Of a stretch of 64,000 nucleotides of DNA, positions 6,306 to 57,236 are shown piece by piece. The stretch covers positions 124,001 through 188,000 of the forward strand of contig CAMCMB010000001.1 in NCBI GenBank assembly GCA_945875845.1, read 5' to 3'. Position 1 is the first letter of the stretch. Each line of letters opens with the position of its first letter. The position numbers were made by a program, and so were the translations under genes. Below the pieces are notes generated by a model, which saw nothing but the letters and a program-made list of their open reading frames with translations, ran no database searches and was not told where the DNA came from. Source of the stretch: Pirellula staleyi DSM 6068. Its GTDB lineage: Bacteria; Planctomycetota; Planctomycetia; Pirellulales; Pirellulaceae.

Positions 6306-6449
6306 CCCGAAGCATAACGGCTTGTTGCCTTAATGGTACGACGGACTTCCTAGTCCGTCGAATTCCCCATTGACGGACTAGGAAGTCCGTCGTACCGCCC
6401 TTACCCAATAACGACTTCACTAAAGCAACGAGCCGTCACGTATCGGGTT
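6306..6449. repeat. Nested palindromic element, copy A
   Basis: The core at 6335-6398 is a near-perfect palindrome (GGTACGACGGACTTCCTAG and its reverse complement around GTCCGTCGAATTCCCCATTGACGGAC). It is bracketed by terminal inverted repeats ACGGCTTGTTGCCTTA (6317) and TAAAGCAACGAGCCGT (ending 6436). Outside these lie ACCCGAAGCATAACGG and CCGTCACGTATCGGGT, the two arms of a second palindrome. Related copies occur near 21.2, 24.4, 25.9 and 28.5 kb. It encodes no transposase; it is MITE-like or REP-like. The rest of the gap to 6658 shows no gene. Confidence 0.85.
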
Positions 6450-8473: not shown

Positions 8474-8475
8474 TC

Positions 8476-8539
8476 AAAGTAGTAGGCACATTCCATGTGC
8501 CGTCCACAAAGTAGTAGGCACATTCCATGTGCCGTCCAC
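8476..8539. repeat. Two tandem 32-bp hairpin units downstream of the dihaem cytochrome gene
   Basis: Two identical 32-base units (8476-8507 and 8508-8539) begin three bases after the stop codon. Each contains GGCACAT TCC ATGTGCC, a 7-bp stem with a 3-base loop. No T tract follows, so if it ends transcription it is not a classical intrinsic terminator. A further imperfect hairpin (GGCACGGCGGAGCGTGCC) follows near 8571. No gene is visible from 8474 to 8707. Confidence 0.85.
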
Positions 8540-14359: not shown

Positions 14360-15832
14360 TTACTTTGGCATGAGCTCTTCGATGACGATATCTTTGTAGC
14401 GGACGATGGAGGTTGCGTTGCCGTGGATCTGCACGGCGATCATGCCCGTTTCATCCATCCCTGGCTCGGTTTCTGTGAAGTCCACTGTCTGGACGCCGTT
14501 GAGCCACAGTTGAATTCGAGGCCCTTCGGCTCGGATGCGGTAATCGTTCCATTCGCCCAATGGCTTGCGGACTTTCTCGAGCACTTCTTTCGAAGGTTGC
14601 ATCAGCATTTTATTGCGGCGACTCTCATCGTATAACGCTCCGTCAAATCCAGCACCAAGGTCCGCTTGATATCCAGAAACTTCATGATGGTTCGGTATGC
14701 GTTTCGAACGAAACTGTACGCCGCCGTTGACGAAGCCTTCGGTTCCTTCCAGCTTCCACTTCAGCGACAATTCGAAGTTCCGATAAGATTTCGTTGTCGC
14801 CAGGAAATCGTTCTTTTCTTGCTTCTTGTCGAGTGAGCCAGCCGTTAGCGCCCCATCGACGATTCGCCAGACTGTTCCCGTATCGCCTTCCCATCCGTTG
14901 AAGGTTTTTCCGTCAAACAACCGCACAGGTTCCGCACGCAGATACCCTGAGTCACGCAACCAATCGGCCAGACGAAGATGCCATGTGGACACAGGTCGTT
15001 CGGACTCTCGAATTCCGTAGCCATGACCACCGCGAGCGTAAACATGCAACTCCGCCGGAACACCTGCTTGTTTTAATGCAATGAACAACGAAGCGGCTTG
15101 CACTCCACGAAAAGAGTCGTCCGCGGTGACCGCTAGAAACATGGGTGGCGTTTCCGGGGTGACTTTCACTAGAGAGCCGAGAGCGACTTCCGTCCGATCG
15201 TTGTACTTTTCGCCAAGGTAAGCCGCATAAATGGGACATAGGAAATTCGGCTTACAACTTTGTTCATCTATGGCATCGCGCGAAGCATAGCTTGCAGGGT
15301 CACCCTGTAGGCCGGTCATGATCGTCAAATGCCCTCCAGCGGAGAAGCCTAGCACCCCAACGCGATTCTTGTCGATGCCCCATTCCTCAGCTTGAGCTCG
15401 CATTAGGCGAACCGCACGCTGAGCATCCTGCAAGGCTTCGCGGTGCGGTTCGTCCGGATCGCGACGTGGCACTCGGTATTTCAGGACGCCCGCAGTCACA
15501 CCTTGCGTGTTCAGCCATTTCGCGACTTCTAATCCTTCCTTGTTCCATGCCAAACCGTTGTAGCCGCCCCCTGGGCAGATAATCATGCCGCATCCATTTG
15601 CGACTTCGGCAGGCGCTCGATAAACCGTCAGCGATGGGGTCTCCACTAGATTGATACGCTCTAGATCGTTAGCGTTGGCTTTGAGCTGCGCTATTTTTTC
15701 CGGAGTCAGTGGCTTGGCTCCGGCAGGAAGCCCTTGCGGCCAAAGAATTGTTTCCGACGGTTCGTCCGCCATTAAACGCCAAGGGGTCATCAACGCAAAT
15801 GCGACGACCAAAAGAAAGGAGAGAGTTTTCAT
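14360..15832 (-). CDS. Secreted esterase/lipase-like hydrolase fused to a DUF1080 domain
   Basis: A 490-residue exported protein. The signal peptide spans residues 1-22 (KTLSFLLVVAFALMTPWRLMA). Residues about 30-300 form an alpha/beta hydrolase of the acetyl-esterase/BD-FAE type: oxyanion region MIICPGGGYNGLAW, nucleophile elbow GVLGFSAGGHL and the histidine region ARGGHGYG. Residues about 305-490 form a DUF1080 (3-keto-disaccharide hydrolase/LamG-like) domain: LFDGKTFNGWEG, KLEGTEGFVNGGVQFRSKR, GEWNDYRIRAEG and a final VRYKDIVIEEL. It likely acts on carbohydrate esters or keto-sugars outside the cytoplasm. Its start is 19 bases downstream of the end of the large gene at 15852 on the same strand. 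Confidence 0.88.
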   Translation of the reverse strand: MKTLSFLLVVAFALMTPWRLMADEPSETILWPQGLPAGAKPLTPEKIAQLKANANDLERINLVETPSLTVYRAPAEVANGCGMIICPGGGYNGLAWNKEGLEVAKWLNTQGVTAGVLKYRVPRRDPDEPHREALQDAQRAVRLMRAQAEEWGIDKNRVGVLGFSAGGHLTIMTGLQGDPASYASRDAIDEQSCKPNFLCPIYAAYLGEKYNDRTEVALGSLVKVTPETPPMFLAVTADDSFRGVQAASLFIALKQAGVPAELHVYARGGHGYGIRESERPVSTWHLRLADWLRDSGYLRAEPVRLFDGKTFNGWEGDTGTVWRIVDGALTAGSLDKKQEKNDFLATTKSYRNFELSLKWKLEGTEGFVNGGVQFRSKRIPNHHEVSGYQADLGAGFDGALYDESRRNKMLMQPSKEVLEKVRKPLGEWNDYRIRAEGPRIQLWLNGVQTVDFTETEPGMDETGMIAVQIHGNATSIVRYKDIVIEELMPK

Positions 15833-15851
15833 GAATGTCGTACCTTGAGTG

Positions 15852-18800
15852 TCACCTTTTTTGAGAAACGTTTTGAGTCAAATTCGGCCAATCCAAATGC
15901 TGGTGAAGGAATTCGAATGTCCCCTCGCCGTTGATGCTGTGGCCTCCTTGAAAGAACTCGATCGCAACGCGATCGGATAGACCAAATTGTGCGTAAAGCC
16001 AGCGGACTTTGGCAAACTCATGCGCTACCCACTGGTCGCGCCCCACCCCATCGTTGTGTCCACGCTCGACCATAAAGGGTCGTGGAAACATCAAGTAAGC
16101 CATCTCTGCGTAGTCGAAGGTTGACCCCAAGTTCCAATAGGGCATCTCCCATTCGATGGTATTCATAAAACTGAATGGCTGATCGGTGGAGGCCACTTTG
16201 CGTGTCCACTGGTTGAAATCGCCGGAGCAGATCGACAAACAGTACTTCTCCAAGATCGTTGGGACTCGCACCGCCGTCTCGCCTCCATAACTGAGCCCGT
16301 AAAATGCGATCCTGTTTCCATCGACGAACGGCAATGAGTCAAGCCACTTTAACGTTTGATCATGGGACGCAACGATGAAGGAAAACAAGGTGCAGCCCAT
16401 CGATTTTGCTTTTCGGTCGAGCCAGCGATATTCGTCCTCCCCTCGATAAAGATTGTGTGGGGCGAAGGTGATGAATCCCCGATTGGCTAACTCGGCCGCG
16501 AAGTTGTTGTACGCCGATTGGTTCGCATCGATCGTGTCCCTTGGTACCCCGTTTCGTCCATGTTGGCAAACCACGACGGGACGTTTCTCGCTTGGCTTGA
16601 GGTCCTTGGGGAGCAGCAAGACACCCCAGGCAAAAAGTTGATCGTGAACGTCCAGTACAACGTCGTAAGCGACCCATTTGTCTGTCTCGAGTACCTTGCG
16701 AGTCCGTGCGTTGGGAGGGAGAAATTCCGCATCGAAGCGGCCAATGGCCTCGTCCTGAAAACGTTTCCGAACGTCCTTGGACGCAGCAATAAAGGAATCT
16801 GGACTTGTCAACGCATGTTTGCGTTCCGTACTCCATCCGCGTTTCGTAAAGTCCGGCATCAGCTTGAACAAAAACGACTGGTCACGCAAATGCTCAGATT
16901 GCTGAACAAGCGATTGAATGTGCGTTTCCAATTGAGCAACACAGCGTCGCTGTCGATCCGCGATTTGTTTCTCTGCTCCGAGACGTTTGTCGACCAAGTG
17001 CTCGGATTTGGCCGGCTCGGATTTGGCCGGCTCGGATTTGGCCGGCTCAGATTTGGCCGGCTCAGATTTGGCCGGCTCAGATTTGGCCGGCTCAGATTTG
17101 GCTGGCTCGGAAGTTTTCGGCCCGAAATGCTTTAGAAAGGTAGAGACCGCTTCGGCGGACCAGGGACCGATGGTTTCGTTTTTGTTTCCCACGATCAACG
17201 TCGGTGGCGATGCGTCGGTTCTCTCACGGATATGACCCAATTCGGATTTTACGCGAGAGAACTCAGGTGTCTTGATTTCCCCTTTGTGCCCGGTAATGGT
17301 CGGGAATTCGCTATGTTCGACGATAAGCTTGCGCGGCAATATCAACGATGCGACTTCGGCGTTACCGTGGGCATGCGCTCGTTGCCAAATGTTGCGATAG
17401 ATCGGTTCGGACCAACTGGAATTGCTTGAGTCAAAATAGCCACTGATCAATACATTCTCAATGCGTGTATCGAGTGCCGCGGCGTGCATGGCAATCATAC
17501 CCCCTTCGCCGTACCCGACGACTCCAATGCGTTGCTGCTCAGCCTTGCGACTCGCAAACCAATCCACTGCGGCCAGAACGCGTTGAATGTCGTAACCGAC
17601 CACATGTCGGCCCATGTGAAATGCTTGACGATGAATCCATTCGCGTTCCGTCATGTCCGCACGTCGAAGCCGTTCCTCGTCGGTTGCCAGTTTCGATCGG
17701 CTTACAATCGTCGGTATCAGCAAATCAAAACCTTGGTTCGCAAGCTGCATTGCGATCTGTTTGCCGACATTGATTCCATCGGCCAGCCCGAGCAATTGTT
17801 CGGGCGTTTGGTCCGCATCGGGAATGACAACACACATGCCATTGGCTTTCACTCGCTGTTGGACGAACAATCCTTCGCCAAAAATGTTGCCCAGCACGGG
17901 CCAACGGACCTGATAAATAGCGAAGGATTCGGTTTGCGCAACCAGAGCTGGATTGTCATCGTCACCGTATCGTTCCAGGCGTGGCGGCAACCGGTCTTCT
18001 ACGACACCTAGAACTTTTTGCAGTTCTGTACGTTGCAGCTCTTGTTGCTTCTCTGTTGAGATCGACAGTTTGTGCCGAGATGTGTTCGCCTGGTCTATCT
18101 GTTTTTCGATGAATCGATGCGCACCAAACATCAGTCGACCGGAAAGGTCTGACTCCGGCCATTCGAGCGGTTGGGTTCCGACGAGAGATTCAACTTTGGT
18201 GACCTGGCGTTCGGGCAATGAGAGCAGCAAACATATCGTCGCCCAAGAGGTCGCTGACGTTGAGATAAACTGATCCTTGCCATGTGGAAAACCCGACTCA
18301 AAATAAGTTTGAAAGGGTTTGCTTCGACTGACCACGTGCCAAGAGCCGTTCGCGTGTTGCGAGGTTAAGAGAAATTGAATGCCGCGTTGCCAGACCACAT
18401 CCTCGACGCTCATCCCAGACCGGTTCAATGCGTAGAGAACGGTGCCTGCCGCATAGGCATCACTCGCCATACCTTTCAATTGAGCCCAGCCACCATCCTC
18501 GCGTTGGGAATCCTTGAATTGCGCCATCATGGTCTGACGAAATTCGAGAGGCAAATCTACGAACTGCGCGGACAGCATGCAAAAGACTTGATCCTCAGTA
18601 TCGTTGGGCACCTCCGTGCTCAACCACTTCGCCGCATTGATCTTGGCCGATTCTATTCTCGCCGAGTCGGCTTCGCGACCGAACGCAGCCAGAGCGCGCA
18701 GCGCGAGATACGTGGTCGTAAAATGACTGGCTTCCGACGGTGGGCGATCGCTCGAGGTTTTCCAAAACCCCTTATCGCTTTGACTGGTCAACAACCATTC

Positions 18801-19229
18801 GACCACGGCATCGGTAACGTCGTCCGCCTCTCGTCCTCCATCTTCCAGCGTCCACAGCGCGTAGCCGGCAGTATCGACTCCACCTCCTTGCCCTTTTCCA
18901 TCTCGATAGTTTTCACGGCCGCGTTTTAAGTGAGCGTACGTATGTTCGATTTGTCGCTCCAAATTGGACGGGTCCGAATGGAAGCCGCGTTTTTTCGCTT
19001 CGACGAAGGCGAGAACCGGCATTGCTTGGCTATGGCAAGTGAAGCATTGCCGTTGCTCAGCCGAACCCGCCGAGGCGCGTTCCAATAGCGGGAGTGCGCG
19101 CTCCACGCTGCTTCTCACGTCCATTTCTTTGTAATGGGGGCTTTCCGCAGCCACCCTCGATGCAATCGTCAACAACCAAAAAACCATCAATAACGATGCG
19201 AGCGCAAGGAGTTTGCTGAAGGCGGACAT
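15852..19229 (-). CDS. Large exported multidomain protein: haem c motif, cyclase-like repeats and two alpha/beta hydrolase domains
   Basis: 1,125 residues from ATG 19229 (GGAAAG upstream); the open frame to 19424 is not needed. Order: signal peptide (1-28); one CxxCH (CFTCH, 62-66); a helical region like squalene-hopene cyclase/prenyltransferase repeats (about 70-355; DTAGYALWTLEDGG, EDGGWAQLKG, HANGSWHVV); then a first alpha/beta hydrolase-like domain. Its elbow reads VGYGEGGMIAM, with Gly where the Ser nucleophile should be. A linker of seven SEPAK pentapeptides follows. The second hydrolase domain has HGRNGVPRD, the Ser elbow FYGLSYGGETA and His in GGHSINGEG. It is probably a periplasmic carbohydrate-esterase-like enzyme; the fusion is known to me only in outline from planctomycetes. 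Confidence 0.8.
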   Translation of the reverse strand: MSAFSKLLALASLLMVFWLLTIASRVAAESPHYKEMDVRSSVERALPLLERASAGSAEQRQCFTCHSQAMPVLAFVEAKKRGFHSDPSNLERQIEHTYAHLKRGRENYRDGKGQGGGVDTAGYALWTLEDGGREADDVTDAVVEWLLTSQSDKGFWKTSSDRPPSEASHFTTTYLALRALAAFGREADSARIESAKINAAKWLSTEVPNDTEDQVFCMLSAQFVDLPLEFRQTMMAQFKDSQREDGGWAQLKGMASDAYAAGTVLYALNRSGMSVEDVVWQRGIQFLLTSQHANGSWHVVSRSKPFQTYFESGFPHGKDQFISTSATSWATICLLLSLPERQVTKVESLVGTQPLEWPESDLSGRLMFGAHRFIEKQIDQANTSRHKLSISTEKQQELQRTELQKVLGVVEDRLPPRLERYGDDDNPALVAQTESFAIYQVRWPVLGNIFGEGLFVQQRVKANGMCVVIPDADQTPEQLLGLADGINVGKQIAMQLANQGFDLLIPTIVSRSKLATDEERLRRADMTEREWIHRQAFHMGRHVVGYDIQRVLAAVDWFASRKAEQQRIGVVGYGEGGMIAMHAAALDTRIENVLISGYFDSSNSSWSEPIYRNIWQRAHAHGNAEVASLILPRKLIVEHSEFPTITGHKGEIKTPEFSRVKSELGHIRERTDASPPTLIVGNKNETIGPWSAEAVSTFLKHFGPKTSEPAKSEPAKSEPAKSEPAKSEPAKSEPAKSEPAKSEHLVDKRLGAEKQIADRQRRCVAQLETHIQSLVQQSEHLRDQSFLFKLMPDFTKRGWSTERKHALTSPDSFIAASKDVRKRFQDEAIGRFDAEFLPPNARTRKVLETDKWVAYDVVLDVHDQLFAWGVLLLPKDLKPSEKRPVVVCQHGRNGVPRDTIDANQSAYNNFAAELANRGFITFAPHNLYRGEDEYRWLDRKAKSMGCTLFSFIVASHDQTLKWLDSLPFVDGNRIAFYGLSYGGETAVRVPTILEKYCLSICSGDFNQWTRKVASTDQPFSFMNTIEWEMPYWNLGSTFDYAEMAYLMFPRPFMVERGHNDGVGRDQWVAHEFAKVRWLYAQFGLSDRVAIEFFQGGHSINGEGTFEFLHQHLDWPNLTQNVSQKR
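17002..17110. repeat. 15-bp in-frame minisatellite (SEPAK linker)
   Basis: About seven units of TCGGATTTGGCCGGC / TCAGATTTGGCCGGC lie inside the large minus-strand gene, coding for the repeated pentapeptide SEPAK between its two hydrolase domains. The unit length is a multiple of three, so gain or loss of units would change linker length without a frameshift. Only one third-codon-position base (G/A) varies among most units. Confidence 0.95.
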
Positions 19230-19330
19230 GATTGCTTTCCATCGGGGACAAATTCTCAAATCGAATGGGTATTCAAGTATAGCTGTAATTGGCTTAATGG
19301 CATCACTTTCGGTTCGAACCAATGTTTTTG

Positions 19331-19415
19331 TAGCGGAGCGGCGCGAGCCGCCCGGTGAATTCCCAAGTAATTTGCGAATCCACACCGGACAGCTTGCGCT
19401 GTTCCGCTGCAAAGT
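19331..19415. repeat. Inverted pair of an interspersed repeat (TAGCGGAGCGGCGCGAGCCG type)
   Basis: TAGCGGAGCGGCGCGAGCCG plus CCCGGT (19331-19356) and ACCGGACAGCTTGCGCTGTTCCGC (from 19384) are imperfect reverse complements about 30 bases apart. A third related copy lies between trpB and trpA (27512-27541). It sits between the convergent-free gap of the sulfatase stop and the large gene start, a 200-base gap with no other gene. Confidence 0.75.
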
Positions 19416-19451
19416 GAGTGACATTGGGTATTGGCTGGATACGCGGCTGGT

Positions 19452-21050
19452 TCATGGCTGAATCGGAGTTGTTTCGAAATCCGAATCCAGTACCCAATTG
19501 GTATTCATCCGTTCGCCTCGCATGAAGCGTTCGTAAAAGCCTCGAGTGCTCGGATTGGAATGCGGGTACTCGTCAAATACCTTGCCGTTGCCAAACATGC
19601 GAGGGTCTTCTTGTTTGCGAAGTTGGTCCTCCATTCGTACCTGCAACCTTTTCAATTGACTTGCTGATGAATCGAGCGATGCAATATTGTTCACACAGTC
19701 AGGATCGCTCGCCAAATCGTAAAGCTCCTCCTCCGGACGTTTTCCGAAACAAAGAGACCAGTGCGGTGACGTACCAGCCAGTCGACGTGTGTTGAGAATG
19801 GACGTCTTCGTCGCTCCGGCATCGCAGTTCAAATAGCCCGTTTCCGGATTGCATGCCGGCCATCGGTCCGGTTCAAAGTTATGTAGGTATAACGTATCGC
19901 GCGTTATCATTCCGCGAATCGGATAGCCCTCATCGTTGGGTCTGCCAATATCGTGACGCTCCATTCCGATCAATACGTGGTCACGATTGGGATTCGACGC
20001 GTCTGACGCCGAATGAAAGAGATCCGTCAAGCTTACGCCGGATGTTGCAGCCATTTTCGTCGTCTCCCAATTCAGACCCGCGACCTCAATGATTGTAGGT
20101 GCGAGGTCGATGAAACTCACAAGGTCGTTAATGACTCTGCCGGGTGAACCAATTTGGTTCTTCCACATCATTGCCATCGGGACGTGATTGGACGCTTCAT
20201 AAGCACCTCCTTTGCCGCGAGGGAAAGGCATGCCATGATCCGAGGTTACGATGATGAGCGTATTGTCGAGCAATCCTCGCCGACGGAGTGAGTCTAGCAT
20301 TCGTCCAAGGTGCGAATCGAAGTGCTCAATTTCTACGGCATAATCAAGCATGTCGTTTCGAACGTTTTCATTGTCGGGCCAATAACTCGGCACCCGCTCG
20401 ATATCTTGCAGTGATTTACCCCCCTTATTCACACCCGATCCGAACTCATACTCGCGATGAGGTTCGATAGCTCCATACCAAAAGCACCATGGGGCGCCGT
20501 TGGGCGTTGCATCCAGAAAGTCGTCGAAATTGGCTGCATAGTCGTTTTTCCCAATTCCAGTCGTGGGTGGCTTCGCAGTCCGAGCGTTAAACGCTTTGCC
20601 AGTCATTTGCCGTGGCTTGCCATTGATATCGACTGCGACGCCCGGCCCCCAACCCTTGGCGGTGTGTCCCATGTGCCAACCATTCCTGCTCAAGACTTCT
20701 GGCCAACCCGTAAACTCGCTGGGGAAAAAGCAAAGATGGTTTGCTGCTTCCTTCAATTGCCAAGAATTTCGTCCCGTCAAAATGCAAGCGCGAGACGGAG
20801 CGCACTTTGCGTTGGGCGTATACGCTCGCTGGAACAGTAATCCTTCCGAGGCAACTTTGTCGAACGCGGGGGTCTTGGTCCATTTGCATCCGTAAGCGCT
20901 TGCGTGCCCGAACCCCCAGTCATCTGCGATTGCAAACAGGATGTTGGGGGGTGATGCCTCGTTGGAGCAAGCCGTGCTTTGGATCCATGCGGCCGAAAGA
21001 ATCGCAAGCCCCAGTACGGTTCCAAAACGGTCTGTTCGTAGGTTTCTCAT
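19452..21050 (-). CDS. Exported formylglycine-dependent sulfatase
   Basis: A 532-residue sulfatase of the arylsulfatase/alkaline-phosphatase superfamily. The signal peptide spans about residues 1-29. Metal ligands are in [11 protein letters not shown] (D43, D44). The active site CAPSR at 83-87 is the C-x-P-S-R consensus whose Cys is converted to formylglycine, with LTGRNSW following. Further ligands are in [15 protein letters not shown]. The C-terminal third contains [15 protein letters not shown], typical of family members acting on sulfated glycans. Marine planctomycetes carry many of these for sulfated polysaccharide breakdown; the exact substrate cannot be told. The maturing enzyme gene is not in this window. 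ATG at 21050 has AGGAGA 13 bases upstream. Confidence 0.92.
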
Positions 21051-21168
21051 AGAGCCACTCGATTCTCCTAGGTTGAGGCTGTGAATTTATTATCTTCGAC
21101 TTTCGTTCCTGGGGCTGTGAATGAATGGATGGACCACTTTTCGGCGGCAGTTTGGCAACCCGTGCCCG

Positions 21169-21335
21169 TAAGCGAGGAGACGACTACAATCCCTCGCTTA
21201 CCAGCTTGTTGATTTAAAGGTACGACGGACTTCCTAGTCCGTCGAATTCCCCATTGACGGACCTGGAAGTCCGTCGTACCGCCCTTACCCAATAACGACT
21301 TCACTAAAGCAACAATCCGTTACGCGTCGGGTTAC
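21169..21335. repeat. Nested palindromic element, copy B
   Basis: An outer palindrome (GTAAGCGAGG ... ATCCCTCGCTTAC, 21169-21202) is interrupted in its right arm by a MITE-like element (21203-21316: AGCTTGTTGATTTA, palindromic core GGTACGACGGACTTCC ... GGAAGTCCGTCGTACC, then TTCACTAAAGCAACAA). The outer sequence resumes as CCGTTACGCGTCGGGTT (21317-21333). It is the same composite as at 25879-26060, there in the opposite orientation. The 21051-21979 gap contains no gene I can support. Confidence 0.85.
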
Positions 21336-21539
21336 CAAGCGAATTAATTCACAGTCTCTCTAGACGTAGACTTTAACAAATTGGGTAACTCAGTGCGCGT
21401 CACCTCCCCGGTCCGACCACTCAGCAAAATGGAAAGTTCTCTCCGAACTCAGCGATTGCTGCGGCTTAATTTCGCATTCTGCGGGGAGCGTGTTTTCGGG
21501 GGATGATGCGCTTTTACAACCAATTCATTGCTCGCTCGT

Positions 21540-21740
21540 GAGGGTGAGGCCACTCCTCTCAACGTGTTTTCCTCGACTTTGCCCAATCCATTCATTGCTT
21601 GGGTGGGTGAGGCTCCTGCCGAACCATGGCGTATTAAGCTCGGCAGGAGCCTCGCCCTCCCGATGGTTTCCGATGGTTTCCGATGGTTTCCGATGGTTTG
21701 ACATGGGAAAGATGTTTGGAGGGGTGGCGTAAGTCTCTGC
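21540..21740. repeat. Long imperfect hairpin with a second hairpin and a GATGGTTTCC tandem inside
   Basis: The outer arms GTGAGGCCACTCCTCTCAAC (about 21545) and GAAAGATGTTTGGAGGGGTG (about 21707) are imperfect reverse complements; the same pair occurs at 31951-32077. Inside lies GGGTGAGGCTCCTGCCGA / TCGGCAGGAGCCTCGCCC (21605-21657), a family also found at 24383-24521 and 57111-57171. Four copies of a CGATGGTTTC unit (21661-21700) follow. It lies about 240 bases before ndk. Confidence 0.8.
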
Positions 21741-21979
21741 CTGGCGTACTGGGGGCGAAAACAACCTTAAGGAGTGTTTTGCAGAAGCTGGTTTAGCGTT
21801 AGCGACTATTCGTTACGATTCAACCGGTCGAGTCCATTGAATGGTTGGCGATTCTATGTTCGCTCGGCATTTCAGCGACGCCAGCATCAGTGGTTTTGAT
21901 CTAGCCACAAACGCGAAAATCGAGAGAATTCAAGACTGTGCGTTGGCGGTCCGTCCTTGTTGTGTTCTTCAGGTAAATT

Positions 21980-22441
21980 ATGCAAAAGACTCTTGTCCTA
22001 CTCAAACCAGACTGCGTGGAACGTCGATTAATCGGCGAAATTATTGGGCGATTGGAGCGCAAAGGACTCAATGTCATCGCAATGAAGATGTTGCGAGTGA
22101 CACCGGAGTTGTCTAAGCAGCACTATGCAGAGCACGTTACCAAACCCTTTTATCCAAATCTCGAGGAGTTCATTACGTCCTCACCGATTGTTGCGATGGC
22201 GGTTGAGGGTCTTGAAGTGATCCGAGTCGTACGAGAAATGCTTGGGGCTACCAACGGACTCAAAGCGGCTCCAGGTACCATTCGAGGTGACTTTTCAAGC
22301 TCGCGTCAAATGAACCTTGTTCACGCGTCGGACAGCGAAGAGTCTGCTGTGCGTGAACTAGCACTCTACTTTCAACCGAACGAAATCTGCACATACACCC
22401 CAACCTTGGTTGGTAGTTTCCGTGCTGGCGACGAATCCTAA
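21980..22441 (+). CDS. ndk: Nucleoside diphosphate kinase
   Basis: A 153-residue enzyme that equilibrates nucleoside di- and triphosphates in the cytoplasm by a phospho-histidine ping-pong. It has TLVLLKPDCVERRLIGEI at the N-terminus, KGLNVIAMKMLRVT, HYAEHVTKPFYP, the APGTIRGDF loop, and the active-site histidine in NLVHASDSEESA. Length is normal for the family. The start ATG at 21980 has AGGT five bases upstream. It lies about 60 bases before typA on the same strand; co-transcription is possible. Confidence 0.97.
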   Translation: MQKTLVLLKPDCVERRLIGEIIGRLERKGLNVIAMKMLRVTPELSKQHYAEHVTKPFYPNLEEFITSSPIVAMAVEGLEVIRVVREMLGATNGLKAAPGTIRGDFSSSRQMNLVHASDSEESAVRELALYFQPNEICTYTPTLVGSFRAGDES

Positions 22442-22501
22442 AACCTGTTTCGAACTCAAATCACCTAGCACAGCGCTTCCTTAAACAACCGAACAATCCC
22501 A

Positions 22502-24331
22502 ATGCGTCGCAACGACATCCGAAATATTGTCATCATCGCTCACGTCGACCACGGCAAAACCACCATGGTCGATTGTTTGCTCAAGCAGAGCGGTCAATAT
22601 CGCGATTCGCAGCTTCAAGGAACCTGTATTCTCGACAGCAACGATCTTGAAAAAGAACGCGGCATTACGATTCTGTCAAAGAATATCGCAATCGAGTACA
22701 AGGGCGTGAAGATCAACTTGATCGACACCCCTGGTCACGCGGACTTCGGAGGTGAAGTGGAACGCGTCGTTCGAATGGCCGATGGAGCCTTGGTCTTGAT
22801 GGATGCTTCGGAAGGGCCGATGCCGCAGACGCGATTTGTTCTTTCGAAAGCCCTCGAACAGGGCGTCAAGCCGATCGTCGTCATCAACAAGATCGATCGA
22901 CCCGACGCGCGATGCAACGAAGTCATCGAGGAAGCGCTGATGCTGCTCGTCGACTTAGGTGGCGAGCACTTCATGGACCATTTTGACATCATTTTTGCCT
23001 CGGGACGAAGCGGCTATGCCACGCTTGACTGGAAGGTTCCGGGAGAAAACATGGTGCCGTTGCTCGACATGATCCTTGAAAAAATCCCTGGACCGGAGGT
23101 CGAGCCAGACGCACCATTGCAAATGCTGGTCACCAATTTGGACTGGTCGGACTACGTTGGCCGGATTGCGATCGGTAGAATTCAGTGCGGGACCATGAGG
23201 AAGGGACAAACGGTTGACTTGGCCAAAGACGAAGGACGTGTCGTACCGGCCACAATCGCCAATCTTCAGATTTTCGATAAACTCGGTCGAATCGATACCG
23301 AAATGGCATCGGCCGGGGACATCGTCGCCGTGGTTGGCCTGACGGATATCGAAATTGGCGACACGATTTGCAATCGAGGAGAACTCAACGCTCTTCCTCG
23401 ACTGCGTGTCGACGAACCAACCTTGGAAATGATATTCAGCGTGAATACTTCTCCATTGGCAGGCCGTGATGGCAAATACGTAACGACCCGCCAATTGAAA
23501 GCTCGCCTTGAAAAAGAGCTTGAGCGTAATGTGGCCTTACGTGTTCGACCGTTAGAGGGTACCGAAGCGTTTGCGGTACGAGGCCGAGGTGTTTTGCATT
23601 TGTCCGTGCTGATCGAGACCATGCGTCGCGAAGGCTATGAGATGAGCGTCAGCAAGCCGAGGGTTGTATTGAAGCAAATCGATGGCAAGCTTCAGGAACC
23701 TTACGAAGTGTTGAATGTCGAGGTGCCGACGGACAAGGTTGGACCGATCATGGAATTGGTTGGCAATCGACGTGGGATACTCGACGAGATGACACCGCGT
23801 GGGGAATACACTTTATTGCGGTTCTCAATCCCAGCCCGTGGACTGATCGGCGTGAGAACGAAAATGCTCAACGCGACCCAAGGCACAGCCATCATTCACC
23901 ATCGCTTTTCGGGCTATCAGCCAATGGAAGCAGACTTGCCTCGGCGTGCAAACGGTGTTCTTGTATCGATGGTACCAGGCCGAGCGATCCCTTACACTCT
24001 GTTTGCATTGCAAGACCGTGCGGAACTCTTTGTTGCACCGGGGGACGACGTCTACGAAGGTATGGTGGTTGGTGAAAACGCTCGTGACAACGATTTGTGT
24101 GTGAACCCGACCAAAGAAAAGAAATTGACCAACGTTCGAGCAGCAGGTAGCGATGAGAACATCATCCTCAAGCCGCACCGTCAGATTTTTCTCGAAGCGG
24201 CTCTTGAGTACATTGAAGACGATGAATTGGTGGAAGTAACGCCCAACATCATTCGCATCCGAAAAGTGTTCTTGCGTGAAAACGAGCGTCGTCGACAGAC
24301 GAAATCACCCGGCGAGTTGGCTATCGGTTAG
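22502..24331 (+). CDS. typA: Ribosome-associated GTPase TypA/BipA
   Basis: A 609-residue translational GTPase of usual TypA length. GTP-binding motifs: G1 AHVDHGKTT, the G2 region RGITILSKN, G3 DTPGHADFGGEVERV, G4 NKIDRPDAR. Then domain II (YVGRIAIGRIQCGTMRKGQ), EF-G-like domains III and V (LEKELERNVALRV, GRGVLHLSVLIETMRREGYE, GRRGILDEMTPRG in context), and the BipA-specific C-terminal domain (NDLCVNPTKEKKLTNVRAAG). It acts on the ribosome in assembly and stress adaptation. No frame disruption is seen. Confidence 0.97.
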   Translation: MRRNDIRNIVIIAHVDHGKTTMVDCLLKQSGQYRDSQLQGTCILDSNDLEKERGITILSKNIAIEYKGVKINLIDTPGHADFGGEVERVVRMADGALVLMDASEGPMPQTRFVLSKALEQGVKPIVVINKIDRPDARCNEVIEEALMLLVDLGGEHFMDHFDIIFASGRSGYATLDWKVPGENMVPLLDMILEKIPGPEVEPDAPLQMLVTNLDWSDYVGRIAIGRIQCGTMRKGQTVDLAKDEGRVVPATIANLQIFDKLGRIDTEMASAGDIVAVVGLTDIEIGDTICNRGELNALPRLRVDEPTLEMIFSVNTSPLAGRDGKYVTTRQLKARLEKELERNVALRVRPLEGTEAFAVRGRGVLHLSVLIETMRREGYEMSVSKPRVVLKQIDGKLQEPYEVLNVEVPTDKVGPIMELVGNRRGILDEMTPRGEYTLLRFSIPARGLIGVRTKMLNATQGTAIIHHRFSGYQPMEADLPRRANGVLVSMVPGRAIPYTLFALQDRAELFVAPGDDVYEGMVVGENARDNDLCVNPTKEKKLTNVRAAGSDENIILKPHRQIFLEAALEYIEDDELVEVTPNIIRIRKVFLRENERRRQTKSPGELAIG

Positions 24332-24382
24332 TGGCCTTTGGGCCAACATCTTGGCGATGCCCAATCGATAGGCAAATGGTTC

Positions 24383-24521
24383 GGGAGGGCGAGGCTCCTG
24401 CCGAGCTTGCGGGCTGTTGATTTCGTGAAGTCGTTATTGGGTAAGGACTAGGATGTCCGTAGCACCATTAAATCAACAGCCCGCTTGAGATGTCGTTGTT
24501 CGGCAGGTGCCTCACCCTCCC
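24383..24521. repeat. Nested palindromic element, copy C: one hairpin inserted in another
   Basis: The outer arms GGGAGGGCGAGGCTCCTGCC (from 24383) and GGCAGGTGCCTCACCCTCCC (24502-24521) form one hairpin family. In its loop sits a 76-base element with perfect 15-bp terminal inverted repeats, GCGGGCTGTTGATTT (24409-24423) and AAATCAACAGCCCGC (24470-24484). This is a shortened version of the MITE-like elements at 6.3, 21.2, 25.9 and 28.5 kb, having lost most of the central palindrome. It lies between typA and the cysteine desulfurase gene. Confidence 0.88.
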
Positions 24522-24597
24522 GGACGATGGATGGGTCGAGCAATGTCGATGAAAACATGTTAGTGAGATGGTCTTAGGAACTTAGTGGTTTCCACAA

Positions 24598-25788
24598 ATG
24601 TCTATCTACCTCGATAACCATGCGACCACTCGCATTGATCCCGCCGTGATTGACGTCATGGTTCGCATGATGGAGACAAATTATGCCAACCCCGGGAGTA
24701 CGACCCACGAGGCCGGTAGATTGGTAAGTGGACTGGTTGCGGATGCGACTCAAAGCATCGCGTCGCACTTCCATGCAGATCCGGATGAGATCATCGTTAC
24801 AAGCGGAGCAACGGAGAGCAACAACCTGGCACTTTTCGGTGTTGCTATGCATCCCAAGCAAACGCGACGTCGCATTGTTTCCGCCGTCACCGAGCACCGG
24901 GCAATTTTGGATCCGTTAGTCCAACTCGAAAAACATGGCTTCGAAGTCATCCGACTACCGGTTTTCCCAAACCAGCATCCGTTTGCAGGTGGAATCGACT
25001 TGTCTTTAGCAGCTGAGTCCATCAATGAAGATACTGCGATCGTCAGCATCATGCTGGCGAACAACGAGATAGGAACCATTCAGCCATTGGCTGAGCTTGC
25101 TAAACTATGTCAGCGATGGGGGGTTCCGTTGCATACCGATGCAACCCAAGCCGCTGGGCGTATGCCTATGGACGTCCAAGCGATGGGAGTCGATCTACTA
25201 AGCTTTTCCTCGCACAAATTCTATGGTCCGAAAGGGATTGGCGGTCTTTTCGTTCGTCAGTCGCCCGCGGCAGTCCGCATTCAAGCTCAAATTGTTGGCG
25301 GTGGTCAGCAGTTTAACTTGAGGTCAGGAACTCTCAACAGCGTTGGAATCGTGGGAATGGCGAAAGCACTGGAAGTCGTTGAGTCAAACTTGCTCGCGGA
25401 AATGCCGCAGCAAGCCTACTTAAGGAACTTGCTTTGGGAGTTATTGAATGAACGGATTGACGGTCTAATACTCAACGGCCCGGTTTGGAATGCCATGGCT
25501 CCAAGGGAATCGACTCGGCTCGTGAACAATCTCAACGTGTGTTTTCCAAAAGTGGAGGGTCAATCGTTGATGTTGGAAGTGCCCGATTTGGCGGTGAGCA
25601 GCGGAAGTGCTTGCACGTCGGTGGAGCCTCATCCGAGCCACGTTTTGAGGGGTATCGGGTTGAGCGAGGATCAAGCCAGAGCAAGTTTGCGTTTTGGGAT
25701 TGGCAGATTCAATACCGAAGCAGAAATTCGTAAGACTGCGGAATGGATTGGCAAGGCGCATGCAAAACTTGCCGCGTTTGCTGCTTGA
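24598..25788 (+). CDS. Cysteine desulfurase (IscS/NifS family)
   Basis: A 396-residue PLP enzyme that takes sulfur from cysteine for Fe-S clusters and thiolation. The N-terminus SIYLDNHATTRIDP is the family hallmark; GATESNNLALFG binds the cofactor phosphate; HTDATQAAGR follows; the PLP lysine is in SFSSHKFYGPKG; the catalytic cysteine loop reads SSGSACTSVEP, the IscS-like long-loop type. Length fits IscS/NifS. No iscU or other isc/suf genes lie beside it, so the subtype (general IscS or a specialised copy) remains open. It is bounded on both sides by palindromic repeats. Confidence 0.93.
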   Translation: MSIYLDNHATTRIDPAVIDVMVRMMETNYANPGSTTHEAGRLVSGLVADATQSIASHFHADPDEIIVTSGATESNNLALFGVAMHPKQTRRRIVSAVTEHRAILDPLVQLEKHGFEVIRLPVFPNQHPFAGGIDLSLAAESINEDTAIVSIMLANNEIGTIQPLAELAKLCQRWGVPLHTDATQAAGRMPMDVQAMGVDLLSFSSHKFYGPKGIGGLFVRQSPAAVRIQAQIVGGGQQFNLRSGTLNSVGIVGMAKALEVVESNLLAEMPQQAYLRNLLWELLNERIDGLILNGPVWNAMAPRESTRLVNNLNVCFPKVEGQSLMLEVPDLAVSSGSACTSVEPHPSHVLRGIGLSEDQARASLRFGIGRFNTEAEIRKTAEWIGKAHAKLAAFAA

Positions 25789-25878
25789 CCGAGGTATCCT
25801 CAGGGTCGACAATAGTAGACCTTGAACAGCTTAGGTAGCAGTGCCATTCAAGCGATTGTCGCCCGGGCCGGGATAACT

Positions 25879-26062
25879 CGAAGCGTAAGGGCTTGTTGAT
25901 TTAGTGATGTCCTTATTGGTTAAGGGCGGTATGACGGACTTCCAAGTCCGTCAATGGGGAATTCGACGGACTAGGAAGTCCGTCGTACCATTAAATCCGC
26001 AAGCCGGTAAGCGAGGGATTGCAGTTGGTCCCTCGCTTACCGGCTCCGTTACGCATCGGGTT
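25879..26062. repeat. Nested palindromic element, copy D (inverted relative to B)
   Basis: CTCGAAGCGTAAGG is followed by the MITE-like element (about 25890-26004; GCTTGTTGATTTAGTG, core palindrome, ending ACCATTAAATCCGCAAGC). Then comes a perfect 15-bp stem, CCGGTAAGCGAGGGA (26004-26018) and TCCCTCGCTTACCGG (26029-26043), and CCGTTACGCATCGGGTT. The reverse complement matches the composite at 21169-21335, with the MITE in the other arm of the outer palindrome. No gene is visible in 25789-26189. Confidence 0.87.
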
Positions 26063-26189
26063 GTCAAAATGCAAAGCAAAAGTAGTCCATCCAAAAATTT
26101 CGAGTCTGGGCGACTTTCGCAACTGTCGAATCGTACATTTATTTATTTATCGAACGGTGTTCTCCTTCCTTCAATGATCTAGAGATCAA

Positions 26190-27437
26190 ATGAGCCTTGC
26201 TCCATCCTCACACATGGTAAATCGTTCTGTTGAGACGACTGCCACTAAACAAGTCCCTGATCTCAACGGTCGCTTCGGCGACTTTGGCGGCCGCTATGTT
26301 CCCGAGACGCTGACACGCGCGTTGGACGAGTTGATCGTGGCCTACAATCAGGCCATGCAAGATCCGGATTTTCATGCCGAGCTGAACGAGTTGCTGCACC
26401 GATTTGTCGGCCGGCCTTCCCCGCTGTACCATGCAAAACGCTTAAGCAAGCAGTTAGGCGGAGCTCAAATTTGGTTGAAGCGCGAAGATCTCAATCACAC
26501 GGGTGCTCACAAAATCAACAACACTCTTGGCCAAGCCTTGCTGACGCTTCGCATGAAAAAGACACGTGTGATCGCCGAGACGGGTGCAGGTCAGCACGGT
26601 GTAGCATCGGCAACAGCCTGTGCGCACTTTGGCCTGCCCTGTGTTGTCTACATGGGTTCAGAGGACGTAAGGCGTCAGAAACCCAATGTGTTTAGCATGC
26701 GATTGATGGGTGCTGAAGTGCGGCCAGTTGAGAGTGGATCACGGACATTGCGGGATGCTGTGAATGAAGCGATGCGGGACTGGATGTCGAGTGTCGAAAA
26801 CACACACTACATTATTGGTTCTGTCATCGGCCCTCATCCCTTTCCTATGATGGTCCGTGATTTTCAGAGCGTCATTGGTCGCGAATGCCGTGAGCAGTGC
26901 CTAAGCTCATTCGGTAGGCTGCCTGACACGATCGTGGCTTGCGTCGGTGGAGGTAGTAATGCTGCTGGCATGTTCTATCCATTCGTAGACGACCGCAGTG
27001 TTCGTTTGATTGGCGTTGAGGCAGGAGGACGCGGTGCGACGCCGGGCGAACACGCATCTCCGTTGAGCTATGGTTCGCCGGGCGTCCTTCATGGTTCTTA
27101 CAGCTATGTCATGCAAGACGAAGATGGCCAGACGAGCGATGTTCATTCGATGTCAGCAGGATTGGACTATCCTGGAGTTGGGCCTGAACACAGTTATTGG
27201 AAAGACTCCCAACGGGTTGAGTACACTTCATGTCGAGATGACGAAGCCTTGGGGGCATTTGACTTCTTGGCACGCAACGAAGGGATACTAACTGCGTTGG
27301 AAACGTGTCATGCGGTAGCGAAGGCTGCGGAAACTGCCAAGACGATGACACCGGACCAGCATCTTGTTATTTGCCTTTCGGGGCGAGGCGACAAGGACGC
27401 TGCCGAGTTGGCTCGACTCCGCGGTCAAGAATGGTAG
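26190..27437 (+). CDS. trpB: Tryptophan synthase beta chain
   Basis: A 415-residue PLP enzyme joining indole and serine to make tryptophan, in complex with TrpA. Features: [15 protein letters not shown] near the N-terminus, the PLP lysine in [32 protein letters not shown], the phosphate-binding [29 protein letters not shown], and CLSGRGDKD near the end. About 27 extra N-terminal residues precede the conserved start; ATG at 26190 is used, though an ATG at 26214 is possible. trpA follows on the same strand after about 190 bases rather than overlapping it. Confidence 0.97.
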
Positions 27438-27630: not shown

Positions 27631-28440
27631 ATGACAGCGATCGATGATTTGTTTGTTCGGCTTAAATCGCAGGGCAAAAAGGCGTTCATGCCATTTGTCA
27701 CTGCGGCAGACCCAAACCTTGGCTTCACAAGACAAGTGTTGCGAAAGCTAGACCAATTGGGCTGTTCGATGGCAGAAGTTGGAATCCCTTATAGCGATCC
27801 GATCGCAGACGGACCCGTCATTCAAGCGTCCTATACGCGAGCATTGGCGACCAAGGTCAAACTGAAAGACATATTTAACGAGATCGCAGCGGAGCGTGCC
27901 AATCTCAGCATGCCATTGGTTTCAATGGTGAGCTATGCAATTATTCATCGCCAAGGCCCGCAATGTTATGTGGATGCAGCCCTCGCGGCAGGTTTTTCCG
28001 GCGCAATTGTACCGGACCTTTTGGTGGAGGAAAGCGGGGCATTGGCCCGCATTTGTCATGCGAACAACTTCAATTTAATCCAGTTGGTGACGCCTACTAC
28101 GCCGCGCGATCGGGCTCTCAAAATCGCGGAGCATTCCAGCGGTTTCCTCTATTTCGTAAGTGTCACGGGGATTACTGGCGAAAGAACCGAACTTCCCCCA
28201 GACTTGGTTGATCGCGTGTCTTGGCTGCGTGAACGAACACCGCTCCCAATTTGCATCGGTTTTGGGATTTCTAAGCCAGAACATGTTCGCTTACTCGCCC
28301 CGGTGTCCGATGGACTCATCGTAGGTTCGGCGATTGTCAGGATGATGGAACAGGCGGCGAAATCGGAACAGGAAGCGTTGAAATCGATCGAGGAACTCGT
28401 CTCAAGCTTGATCTCTGCAATGGATGAGAACGCGGTCTAA
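27631..28440 (+). CDS. trpA: Tryptophan synthase alpha chain
   Basis: A 269-residue TIM-barrel enzyme that splits indole-3-glycerol phosphate and passes indole to TrpB. KKAFMPFVTAADPN opens the barrel. The catalytic Glu lies in MAEVGIPYSDPIADGPVIQ with the catalytic Asp in the same segment (IADGP). GAIVPDLLVEE, LIQLVTPTTP, FLYFVSVTGITGER and the phosphate-binding PICIGFGISKPEH and IVGSAIV follow. ATG at 27631 (MTAIDDLFVRL) is chosen over the frame's earlier ATG at 27571, since similarity begins there. The stop codon TAA merges with a repeat end (AAATCAACAGCCC). Confidence 0.96.
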   Translation: MTAIDDLFVRLKSQGKKAFMPFVTAADPNLGFTRQVLRKLDQLGCSMAEVGIPYSDPIADGPVIQASYTRALATKVKLKDIFNEIAAERANLSMPLVSMVSYAIIHRQGPQCYVDAALAAGFSGAIVPDLLVEESGALARICHANNFNLIQLVTPTTPRDRALKIAEHSSGFLYFVSVTGITGERTELPPDLVDRVSWLRERTPLPICIGFGISKPEHVRLLAPVSDGLIVGSAIVRMMEQAAKSEQEALKSIEELVSSLISAMDENAV

Positions 28441-28576
28441 ATCAACAGCCCACCAGCGGCGTGTTGCTTTAATGGTACGACGGACTTCCTAGTCCGTCGA
28501 ATTCCCCATCGACGGACTTGGAAGTCCGTCAAGCCGCCCTTAACCAATAACGACTTCACTAAATCAACAAGCCGCT
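28438..28576. repeat. Nested palindromic element, copy E
   Basis: A solo end TAAATCAACAGCCC begins at the trpA stop (28438). The full element follows at 28455-28576: AGCGGCGTGTTGCTTTAATG, core palindrome GGTACGACGGACTTCC ... GGAAGTCCGTC, and TTCACTAAATCAACAAGCCGCT. Outer ends AGCGGC and GCCGCT pair. The rest of the gap to the RND gene at 28703 shows no gene. Confidence 0.85.
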
Positions 28577-28702
28577 AGCGAGTTGCGGCTGATTCGGCAC
28601 GATGGTACTGGGTTTCACAGCGGAAACGCGTCTCTGTTGTGCTTCACAGCAAGTACAATAGGGTCAATTCCCGCCTTACTCCTCCCGCCTTAGGAAATTA
28701 TT

Positions 28703-31700: not shown

Positions 31701-31954
31701 GACCGATCTTGATGACAACGATATCGTTCGTCGCCGGATTGATACCTTTGCTTGTTGCGAACGGACCTGGCGCGGAAGAACGTCGTTCGATTGCGGTACT
31801 CGCATCGGGTGGGCAAACCCTGTCCCTATTGTTGACGTTGCTAGCTGTACCTGTTTTGTACACTTACCTAGATGATTTGAGTCTGTTGTTCAAAAAGAAG
31901 CCCGCCCAGTCGAATTCCGAACTTGCCCAACCCATTGAAAGTGTGGGAGTGTGA
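28703..31954 (+). CDS. RND-family efflux transporter (AcrB/MdtB-like)
   Basis: A 1,083-residue inner-membrane proton-driven pump of the hydrophobe/amphiphile efflux type. It starts YWLAEICVKRPVFALMLVMA. The porter domain and duplicated TM bundles are complete. TM4 carries the paired aspartates in VVIDDAIVVLENVYRC, and TM10 the lysine region GVVKKAAILQVDCTNALRRK. The start is TTG at 28703 with AGGA seven bases upstream; no in-frame ATG precedes the conserved N-terminus. No membrane-fusion protein or outer-membrane channel gene is adjacent, so its partners must be elsewhere. The TGA stop falls at the beginning of a repeat arm (GTGAGGCCAC). Confidence 0.95.
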   Translation: MYWLAEICVKRPVFALMLVMALVVAGVVAFPTLGIDRFPRTDLPTVFVRTNYPGAASQEVESEVSQVIEDAVSTVAGIEELRSISNDGSSLVLITFSLDREIDAAVQDVRDAVSAVSNRLPRTVDPSIVQKSDIDSSPVMTIAVSGEKSPSELFLLADRYVKGVIESSPGVGQVTISGAADRAIKVNIDAKRLAAYQLSIAQVRDALARQNAEVPGGRVDEGLRERTLRTLGRVSDAKDFPELVIDTIGGASIRLADLGEVVDGTKEVRTMARLDGKPTVTLSVQRQSGENTVNVIAGVKERLKRSRALLPEDVRVAIIQDQSRYILSALHEIENHLVSGSILACITVLLFMRSWRSTLIASVAIPASIIATFAFMKAFGFTLNNVTMLALVLMVGVVIDDAIVVLENVYRCIEEEGMDPIQASIVGTKEIGLAVLATTVSLVIVFLPVSFLSSVTGRMLFEFGVTATVAILVSMVISFSLTPMMCSILLKPKKEGSQEHNQKTSRQKGFYHWVEVGYMASLRLALKYRFLTLLLCIATILANIPLYGWVRQDYIPTNVDESEFEISANAKEGATVLSMNGALKQIEDKVSEVEGVELILSSIGTRGFGGVNSGSIFVRLTDSPKRSFSLERLFFETIKGQPRKAFEGNFSQQQKMTEIRKLLKSVPDVRVSIRNLTSLRQGANVDIDFSITGPDIQELSDFSERLRKKAMELPGIVDVDTTLRLDKPELLVTIDRERAAALGVSVQEIADTLKIAVGGDDRVSRYRDSSVDDAYDVELRLVGVDRRDVDSISQLYVRTNPAAGRPISIAGNQTGIPLPSKTNLTRIDNVVRFSFGDASARIDRLDRQRMVSIRANISTGYALADRVQALRALAVEVGVPPGFETRVLGRGKELERTLSEFRWTFLLSFIFMYIVLAAQFEHLAHPFTILFTLPLSVPFGLISLYLGNETLNVYSALGVLVLFGVVKKAAILQVDCTNALRRKGVERETAILQANRDRLRPILMTTISFVAGLIPLLVANGPGAEERRSIAVLASGGQTLSLLLTLLAVPVLYTYLDDLSLLFKKKPAQSNSELAQPIESVGV

Positions 31955-32090
31955 GGCCACCCCTGGTAACATGTTTTCCTCGACTTTGCCCAATCCATTC
32001 CTCGCCCTCCCATTGGTTTCCAATGCATTCGCCATTGCAAAGATGTTTAGAGCGGTGGCCTCGCCCTCCCAATGATTCGGGGCGAAAGAC
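31950..32090. repeat. Imperfect long hairpin overlapping the RND stop codon
   Basis: GTGAGGCCACCCCTGGTAAC at 31951 and the arm AAAGATGTTTAGAGCGGTGG near 32040-32060 are imperfect reverse complements, as at 21540-21740. The segment TTTTCCTCGACTTTGCCCAA is shared exactly with that copy. It lies between the convergent RND and Hsp70-family genes and could serve as a two-way end of transcription, but lacks a T tract. Confidence 0.8.
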
Positions 32091-32109
32091 GAACGAACCC
32101 CAACTAGGG

Positions 32110-57110: not shown

Positions 57111-57215
57111 GGGAGGGCGAGGCTCCTGCCGAGCTTACGACGCAAAGGTTCGGCAGGAGCCCCACCCTCCCGGCACGAATCATACCGGCACGAATCATAC
57201 CGGCACGAATCATAC
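57111..57215. repeat. Hairpin of the GGGAGGGCGAGGCTCCTGCC type plus three 15-bp tandem units
   Basis: GGGAGGGCGAGGCTCCTGCC (from 57111) and GGCAGGAGCCCCACCCTCCC (ending 57170) form a long stem, related to those at 21605 and 24383. Immediately after it, CGGCACGAATCATAC occurs three times perfectly (57171-57185, 57186-57200, 57201-57215). The rest of the gap shows no gene. Confidence 0.88.
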
Positions 57216-57236
57216 CGCCGCTCGCATTATGGCCAA

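Follow-up and report, generated by a model that had tools for sequence, protein, structure and literature searches.

A palindrome within a palindrome in Pirellula staleyi: probable insertion of an IS1182-related MITE into a dispersed hairpin

Between typA and a cysteine desulfurase gene of Pirellula staleyi DSM 6068, one palindrome sits inside the loop of another. We analysed the surrounding 64,000-nucleotide stretch of DNA (the window), together with the rest of the genome and its relatives, and conclude that the inner palindrome is very probably a MITE, a non-autonomous element that belongs to an insertion sequence of the IS1182 family, inserted with a 4-bp target duplication and with a preference for palindromic repeats. 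Direct support comes from the ends of the element, its target duplication, empty sites, relatives that carry a transposase gene between matching ends, and tetraloop insertions by one such element in the relative G130.

Results

Anatomy of the nest

The nest lies in the gap between the end of typA at 24331 and the start of the cysteine desulfurase (nifS) gene at 24598, whose protein has its nearest named records in the Pirellula MAGs Tobar2m-G36 (89%) and Loclat bin-05000 (73%). The nested palindromes at 24383–24521 match in sequence what a preliminary description had reported. Their parts are as follows.

24337..24583, no strand: segment absent from the typA–nifS gap of the relatives G014 and G016, containing the outer repeat and the inner element (alignment)
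24383..24404, + strand: outer hairpin, left arm (sequence, arm pattern search)
24406..24409, no strand: target duplication CTTG, left copy (4/4 bases agree)
24410..24483, − strand (strand of the family model): inner unit, a copy of the 118-bp MITE minus 44 bp (profile search)
24410..24423, + strand: terminal inverted repeat CGGGCTGTTGATTT
24470..24483, − strand: terminal inverted repeat CGGGCTGTTGATTT
24484..24487, no strand: target duplication CTTG, right copy (4/4 bases agree)
24500..24521, − strand: outer hairpin, right arm (sequence, arm pattern search)

The inner unit is 74 bp long, has perfect 14-bp ends (CGGGCTGTTGATTT/AAATCAACAGCCCG) and is flanked by direct copies of CTTG. It had been described as 76 bases with 15-bp ends (24409–24484); the inverted-repeat ends hold, whereas the extent does not, because the G and C of the fifteenth pair belong to the two CTTG copies. 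Relative to its family, this copy is missing 44 bp of the core, and the profile search picked it up as two halves. The CTTG lies at the stem-loop border of the outer hairpin, where 2 of 8 flanking positions pair.

The inner element belongs to a family of 118-bp MITEs

The P. staleyi genome (G000) comprises 7,009,265 bases in 149 contigs. We ran a profile search over 61 stretches of it totalling 1,239,000 bases, window included; eight of the 61 (L198, L199 and L214–L219) had been picked for holding end matches, so that the sample was not blind. The search returned 136 matches over both strands, which reduced to 71 distinct matches and to 62 with both ends. The nine that were left out for want of a second end include the two halves of the copy in the nest. 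For the analyses of insertion sites we also left out four of the 62 whose lengths differed (76, 123, 125 and 127 bp), leaving 58 sites.

The full-length element measures 118 bp, and 58 of the 62 both-ended copies are 117–118 bp long; the element is bounded by 14-bp terminal inverted repeats and carries no gene. The four bases on either side agreed at all four positions in 32 copies, at three in 16, at two in seven, at one in six and at none in one; the commonest duplications were CTAG (11), GTGA (4), GTAA (3), TTAC (3), CCAG (2), CAAG (2) and TCAC (2). Four full-length copies lie in the window, in agreement with the earlier report of the inner element elsewhere in it with a fuller core.

6318..6435, + strand: full-length inner MITE (1/4 agreement between the four bases on either side)
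21202..21319, + strand: full-length inner MITE in repeat B, TTAC duplication
25889..26006, − strand: full-length inner MITE in repeat B, TTAC duplication
28457..28574, + strand: full-length inner MITE, CCAG/CTAG, beside an end-like remnant of another copy (28439–28453)

With up to 2 mismatches allowed, a 15-base end pattern matched the genome at 200 places (reversed pattern, 13); in the window alone, at up to 3 mismatches, it matched 10, compared with a mean of 2.34 and a maximum of 6 in shuffled sequences. Stop-to-stop ORFs of at least 150 codons cover 86% of the sample, yet only 3 of the 62 MITE midpoints fall in them. The family thus has what defines a MITE: a short, gene-less body with terminal inverted repeats, a target duplication, empty sites and, in relatives, an autonomous partner with the same ends. 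As the 118-bp element has no transposase gene, we class it as an IS1182-related MITE and not as an IS1182 element.

The outer hairpin is itself a dispersed repeat

The outer unit is a dispersed 61-nt hairpin. When up to 3 mismatches are allowed, its 24-base arm matches the genome 480 times and the reversed pattern not once. The preliminary description had pointed to an outer hairpin without the inner unit at 57111–57171; this is indeed the case, and the window holds a second such copy.

57111..57171, + strand: outer hairpin without the inner element
21601..21661, − strand: outer hairpin without the inner element, within a larger inverted repeat (about 21538–21729)
31945..32070, no strand: larger inverted repeat without most of the 61-nt hairpin

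The 61-nt hairpin is frequently nested in turn in an inverted repeat of 182–184 bp, as at about 21538–21729, both ends of which start with the same GGGAGGGCGAGG; allowing up to 6 mismatches, we counted 8 full pairs. Alignment of outer copies showed that they have the flanks of this larger repeat in common, which makes it a second level of nesting. A target duplication at the larger repeat was sought in nine cases and found in 1 of 9 at 2 bases and in 0 of 9 at 3 to 8 bases.

The inner element occupies an outer hairpin at two loci, the one in the window and one on contig C45 of the same genome. Genome-wide, the joint CTGCCGAG-CTTG-inner was found at three places with at most 1 mismatch (once in the window, twice in C45) and at two further places with 3 mismatches, both of which lack the outer arm. 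At the C45 locus (L198:7268–7620), the inner element and an outer half-hairpin form a tandem duplication.

Several tandem arrays were seen in passing. A 32-bp array at L064:13801–13925 has grown from an outer half-arm; in the window, the 15-base unit GGCACGAATCATACC is repeated three times in tandem at 57172–57216, adjoining the empty outer hairpin, a 15-bp array of the GCTCGGATTTGGCCG type occupies 16985–17126, and a perfect 32-bp duplication lies at 8475–8538.

Filled and empty sites

Within the genome, the best pair of filled and empty sites is L199 10060–10176 and L206 2631–2729, which agree at 95% over 99 bp; CTAG occurs twice in the filled site and once in the empty one. Matches that span the rejoined site were found for 39 of the 58 MITE sites and for 43 of 620 random positions, the 39 being an upper bound since some hit neighbouring or tandem inner copies. 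The alignment of filled and empty sites that the preliminary description had proposed as a check thus shows a target duplication (CTAG at L199/L206, and CTTG with 4/4 agreement at the nest).

Two relatives preserve the gene order of this region. Contig C22 of G014 aligns with the window from 14.36 to 48.28 kb at 81–91% identity, and the alignment breaks at 21083–21741, 24337–24583, 25834–26165, 28413–28610 and 31906–32107; at these breaks G014 has about 95 bases (24337), about 2.9 kb of other sequence (28413–28610) and about 113 bases (31906). The alignment of contig C219 of G016 spans 14362 to 26365 and shares the first three of these breaks. The whole nest is absent from both relatives, and 51.9 kb of G014 and G016 together gave no match to the inner profile or to the outer-arm, core and B patterns. 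The nest therefore either arose after the split from G014 and G016 or was lost in both.

We hold with high confidence, from comparison of these sequences, that the inner unit entered the outer hairpin as a nested insertion. The earlier suggestion that it is or was mobile gains support from its defined ends, the 4-bp duplication, the filled and empty sites, and the relatives in which matching ends enclose a transposase gene.

Target sites in the genome

Beyond the outer hairpin, many copies lie in two other repeats, which we call B (CCCGAMGCGTRAGCGAGGG, one arm of a larger hairpin) and C (CAGCCGGAACGCG-CTAG-CGTCCGG). With fuzzy classes that allowed 5 mismatches in 20 for B and 8 in 24 for C, 30 of the 58 sites fell in B and 16 in C; the outer hairpin accounted for 2, and 10 lay elsewhere.

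At offsets 1–3 just outside the duplication, 78, 76 and 48% of 46 sites had complementary bases. Over 10 offsets the flanks paired at a mean of 0.437; the corresponding values were 0.258 for 1,764 CTAG sites and 0.249 for random ones. When flanks were shuffled between partners the mean was 0.376 and the largest value 0.502, a range that includes the real value; this shuffle is weak either way, because members of the same repeat family have flanks in common. We restricted the dyad table to the 31 sites whose duplication is 4/4. Stems of at least 2 bp were present at 12 of the 13 in B and at 7 of the 9 in C, but at neither of the 2 outer-hairpin sites and at none of the 7 others, against a null of 6.7% of 39,059. 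Since stems are confined to B and C, the dyad preference in this genome rests on those two repeats.

Partner elements in relatives

PF05598 had no match in the P. staleyi genome, and the IS1182 model NF033551 matched only a C-terminal fragment at 95.5 bits, below its curated cut-off of 270 bits, which we used for every IS1182 call; the assembly thus holds no intact transposase of this kind. Other candidates in the genome were set aside: no pair of inner ends surrounds the DDE_Tnp_1 genes (5 matches), and the longer end pairs in the sample connect ends that belong to different MITEs, or involve weak end-like matches. By eye, we recognised no transposase ORF in L281, L262, L275 and L289.

The ends are widespread. 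At up to 1 mismatch, the end pattern was found in 82 of 199 genomes of the bacterial family, a survey that counts ends and so mixes MITEs with IS; it matched 454 times in the P. staleyi genome. Counts for the reversed pattern in this survey were 0 or 1. Of 27 genomes of the genus, four contain a longer right end, sought as a 29-mer with up to 3 mismatches (147, 20, 12 and 1 matches). Some match to NF033551 occurs in 14 of the 27.

Five relatives have a transposase above the NF033551 cut-off accompanied by ends of this kind. G130 (312.5 bits) carries three identical 1,795-bp IS1182 copies with ends CGGGCTGTTGATTTATTC and duplications GTAA, TTAC and GTCA, and G234 (336.2 bits) a 1,987-bp element with ends CGGGCTGTCGGTTTAGTG and a CTAG duplication. 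The other three are of the same genus as P. staleyi: G012 (343 bits) has a 1,856-bp element with ends CGGGCTGTCTATTTAGT and a CTTG duplication; G007 (352.8 bits) a 1,786-bp element with ends CGGCTCGTTGCTTTAAT whose flanks, GTAA and TCAC, are no duplication; and G011 (335.4 bits) one end, CGGGCTGTTGATTTAGTG, 87 bases ahead of a 531-aa transposase ORF, around which a second end was not found. The 14-bp end is identical to that of the inner MITE in G130 and in G011 (one end) and differs at two positions in G234 and G012. In G020, an IS1182 gene above the cut-off has no such ends around it. These matches give us fairly high confidence that an IS1182-family transposase is the mobiliser of the inner MITE, and the copies in the P. 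staleyi genome would then have been moved by such an enzyme.

Other elements with such ends were noted along the way. Contigs stop 117–125 bases inside elements with these ends (L271–L274 and L279; genomes G108, G029 and G073), which suggests that longer, collapsed IS copies are missing from these three assemblies. Other cores occur between the same kind of ends in L269 and L270 (G014), L276 (G023) and L268 (G020), and some of these elements enclose B-type hairpins, so that one set of ends goes with many cores. A 1,772-bp end pair in G197 turned out to be a different IS, of the DUF772 type, between two MITE pieces. Seventeen copies of another DUF772 IS occur in G197 (L294, L298 and L301–L315), with 1,532 bp between TAGGCTGTGAATTTT ends in three measured copies; its left flank is the B-like motif ACCCGCN in 14 of 17, and many copies apparently have a 3-bp duplication.

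Loop insertion in G130

The three G130 copies sit in ccgttggc[GTAA]gccaacgg, ccggcggc[TTAC]accgccgg and ccggcggc[GTCA]gccgccgg, where the flanks pair at 8, 7 and 8 of 8 positions. All three targets are copies of one dispersed palindrome, of which 400 kb of G130 contain 8 empty copies; the loops of these differ, and one has coordinately changed arms (GTTGGC/GCCAAC). Among 11,966 sites of nine matching tetranucleotides in the same 400 kb, full 8/8 pairing is seen at 5 and pairing of at least 7 at 13. The pairing and the empty copies indicate that the duplicated bases are the tetraloop of the hairpin, exactly so in two insertions; in the third, a single base on either side of them is unpaired. 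We found no other elements with paired ends and a duplication of at least 3/4 in 400 kb of G130. The IS sites in G234 and G012 pair weakly (3/8 and 4/8), which limits the demonstration of loop insertion to one element and one repeat family; as a general rule, structure-guided loop insertion has our moderate confidence.

Alternative explanations

The nest could be a single composite palindrome whose outer and inner parts were amplified together, without any insertion. It is true that the window and C45 share the outer position and the orientation of the inner unit, C45 being a tandem duplication of the inner element and an outer half. The preliminary description had held that the two would be one unit if every outer copy contained the inner unit at the same place; the 1.239-Mb sample has 47 outer hairpins without it against the two loci with it, and the inner family also occupies two other repeat families and further sites, with duplications of its own. 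We therefore regard a composite unit as extremely improbable. A retained function of the nest, as an RNA or as a terminator in the typA–nifS gap, deserves somewhat more weight, although we still think it improbable: the nest folds far more stably than shuffled DNA (z = −9.66), the family is intergenic (the 3 of 62 midpoints given above), and the gap region has 2 terminator-like matches, one of them within the nest, against 0.2 in shuffles, but both syntenic relatives do without the nest, and it reaches no Rfam family at the gathering score (a single match, E 0.9).

Two further readings concern how the inner unit spreads. Copies hosted by B and C may have multiplied chiefly through amplification of those repeats, in which case the preference for palindromes in the P. 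staleyi genome would be overstated. By our permissive match 46 of the 58 sites lie in B or C, and in some B hairpins, such as L062 and L210, both arms are filled. Set against this are the use of both arms and both orientations, the variety of duplications (GTGA, GTAA, TTAC, TCAC and CTAG), a B-like repeat in G197 that hosts MITEs of a different core between ends of this kind, and the targeting of a different palindrome by the G130 IS; we think such hitch-hiking unlikely as the main route, though it is the most serious of these alternatives. Far less credible is mobilisation by a RAYT, a REP-type Y1 transposase, despite 19 Y1_Tnp matches in the genome and an abundance of palindromes there. Inner ends lie near 1 of the 19 Y1_Tnp loci and outer arms near 2. 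Pattern matches near them fall below expectation for the outer repeat (3 observed, 6.5 expected), the core (4, 10.2), repeat C (0, 1.35) and the larger outer repeat (0, 2.1); only repeat B exceeds it (4, 1.25), with all four at L044 (G000:C21). No RAYT gene was seen between the 14-bp ends, and long terminal inverted repeats with a 4-bp duplication are features of DDE-type elements, which counts against a RAYT. The preliminary description had proposed a search for a RAYT with matching ends; what we found is no association with the outer or the inner repeat, and the evidence points to IS1182 instead.

Discussion

In the mechanism that we favour, insertion of an IS1182-related MITE, a transposase would bind the ends of the inner element and join each to one strand of the target, with the joints staggered by 4 bases; repair would duplicate the bases between the joints, CTTG in the nest. 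Palindromic repeats would be favoured as targets. In the most clear-cut case, the joints would flank the tetraloop of a hairpin, so that the duplicated tetranucleotide is the loop, and the transposase may recognise the extruded hairpin itself. At the nest, the element would have entered an abundant hairpin in its loop region; as this hairpin already lay within a larger inverted repeat, the outcome would be a Russian-doll palindrome whose inner copy at some time lost 44 bp of its core.

A broader proposal is that IS1182 transposases of the Pirellulaceae recognise extruded hairpins and join the element ends on either side of the tetraloop, the duplication being the loop. Dispersed palindromes would then serve as landing pads, and palindromic MITEs, in some genomes with such sites inside them, would build nested palindromes in genome after genome. 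We put this forward tentatively, as a possibility to which we give slightly less than even weight. The G130 insertions provide a testable case for structure-guided DDE transposition. They also suggest how nested palindromes between planctomycete genes may originate, and they offer a partner transposase for the inner MITE family, the ends of which are found in many genomes of the Pirellulaceae.

A MITE within a repeat is ordinary in kind; its partner and its target rule are unusual. Bacterial MITEs such as RUP, NEMIS and Nezha, as presented in the available text of PMC3733652, are likewise short and gene-less, with inverted-repeat ends and a partner IS in relatives, whereas the inner family is partnered by IS1182 and prefers other palindromic repeats. 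In a search of the mainly open-access literature on repeats and MITEs of Pirellula and planctomycetes and on IS1182 targets, including the available portions of PMC9208149 and PMC3733652, we found no description of the inner family.

As a dispersed extragenic palindrome, the outer hairpin resembles REP/BIME and RAYT-linked repeats. In REP/BIME-RAYT systems, however, a RAYT adjoins the repeats, and neither the outer nor the inner repeat showed such an association. IS1397 reportedly also inserts into REP palindromes. IS1397 and ISPpu9 belong to another transposase family and are not known to have the kind of ends and duplication of the inner element. Insertion into dispersed palindromes is likewise described for ISPpu9 in the portion of PMC8450116 available.

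The closest comparison is with IS1272 of staphylococci, whose transposase is of the same family (NF033551) as the partner IS and whose targets are inverted repeats, potential stem-loops. According to the accessible parts of PMC5678879 and PMC4923244, the IS1182-family element IS1272 and its composite use hairpins without a fixed sequence as targets, deleting stem-loop sequence and forming no duplication; 3 of 13 targets of older IS1272 copies seemed non-palindromic, and other IS1182 members target palindromes according to a review cited there. Whereas IS1272 removes the stem-loop without a duplication, here the stem is kept and 4 bp are duplicated, which sets these insertions apart from the IS1272 type. 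As far as the available text of PMC5678879 goes, its model includes a possible pathway c: were the element joined on the 5′ side of the loop, the loop would be duplicated. What is seen in G130 agrees with that sketch: the hairpin is kept and its four-base loop duplicated, an outcome that the model, in the text available, draws but does not demonstrate.
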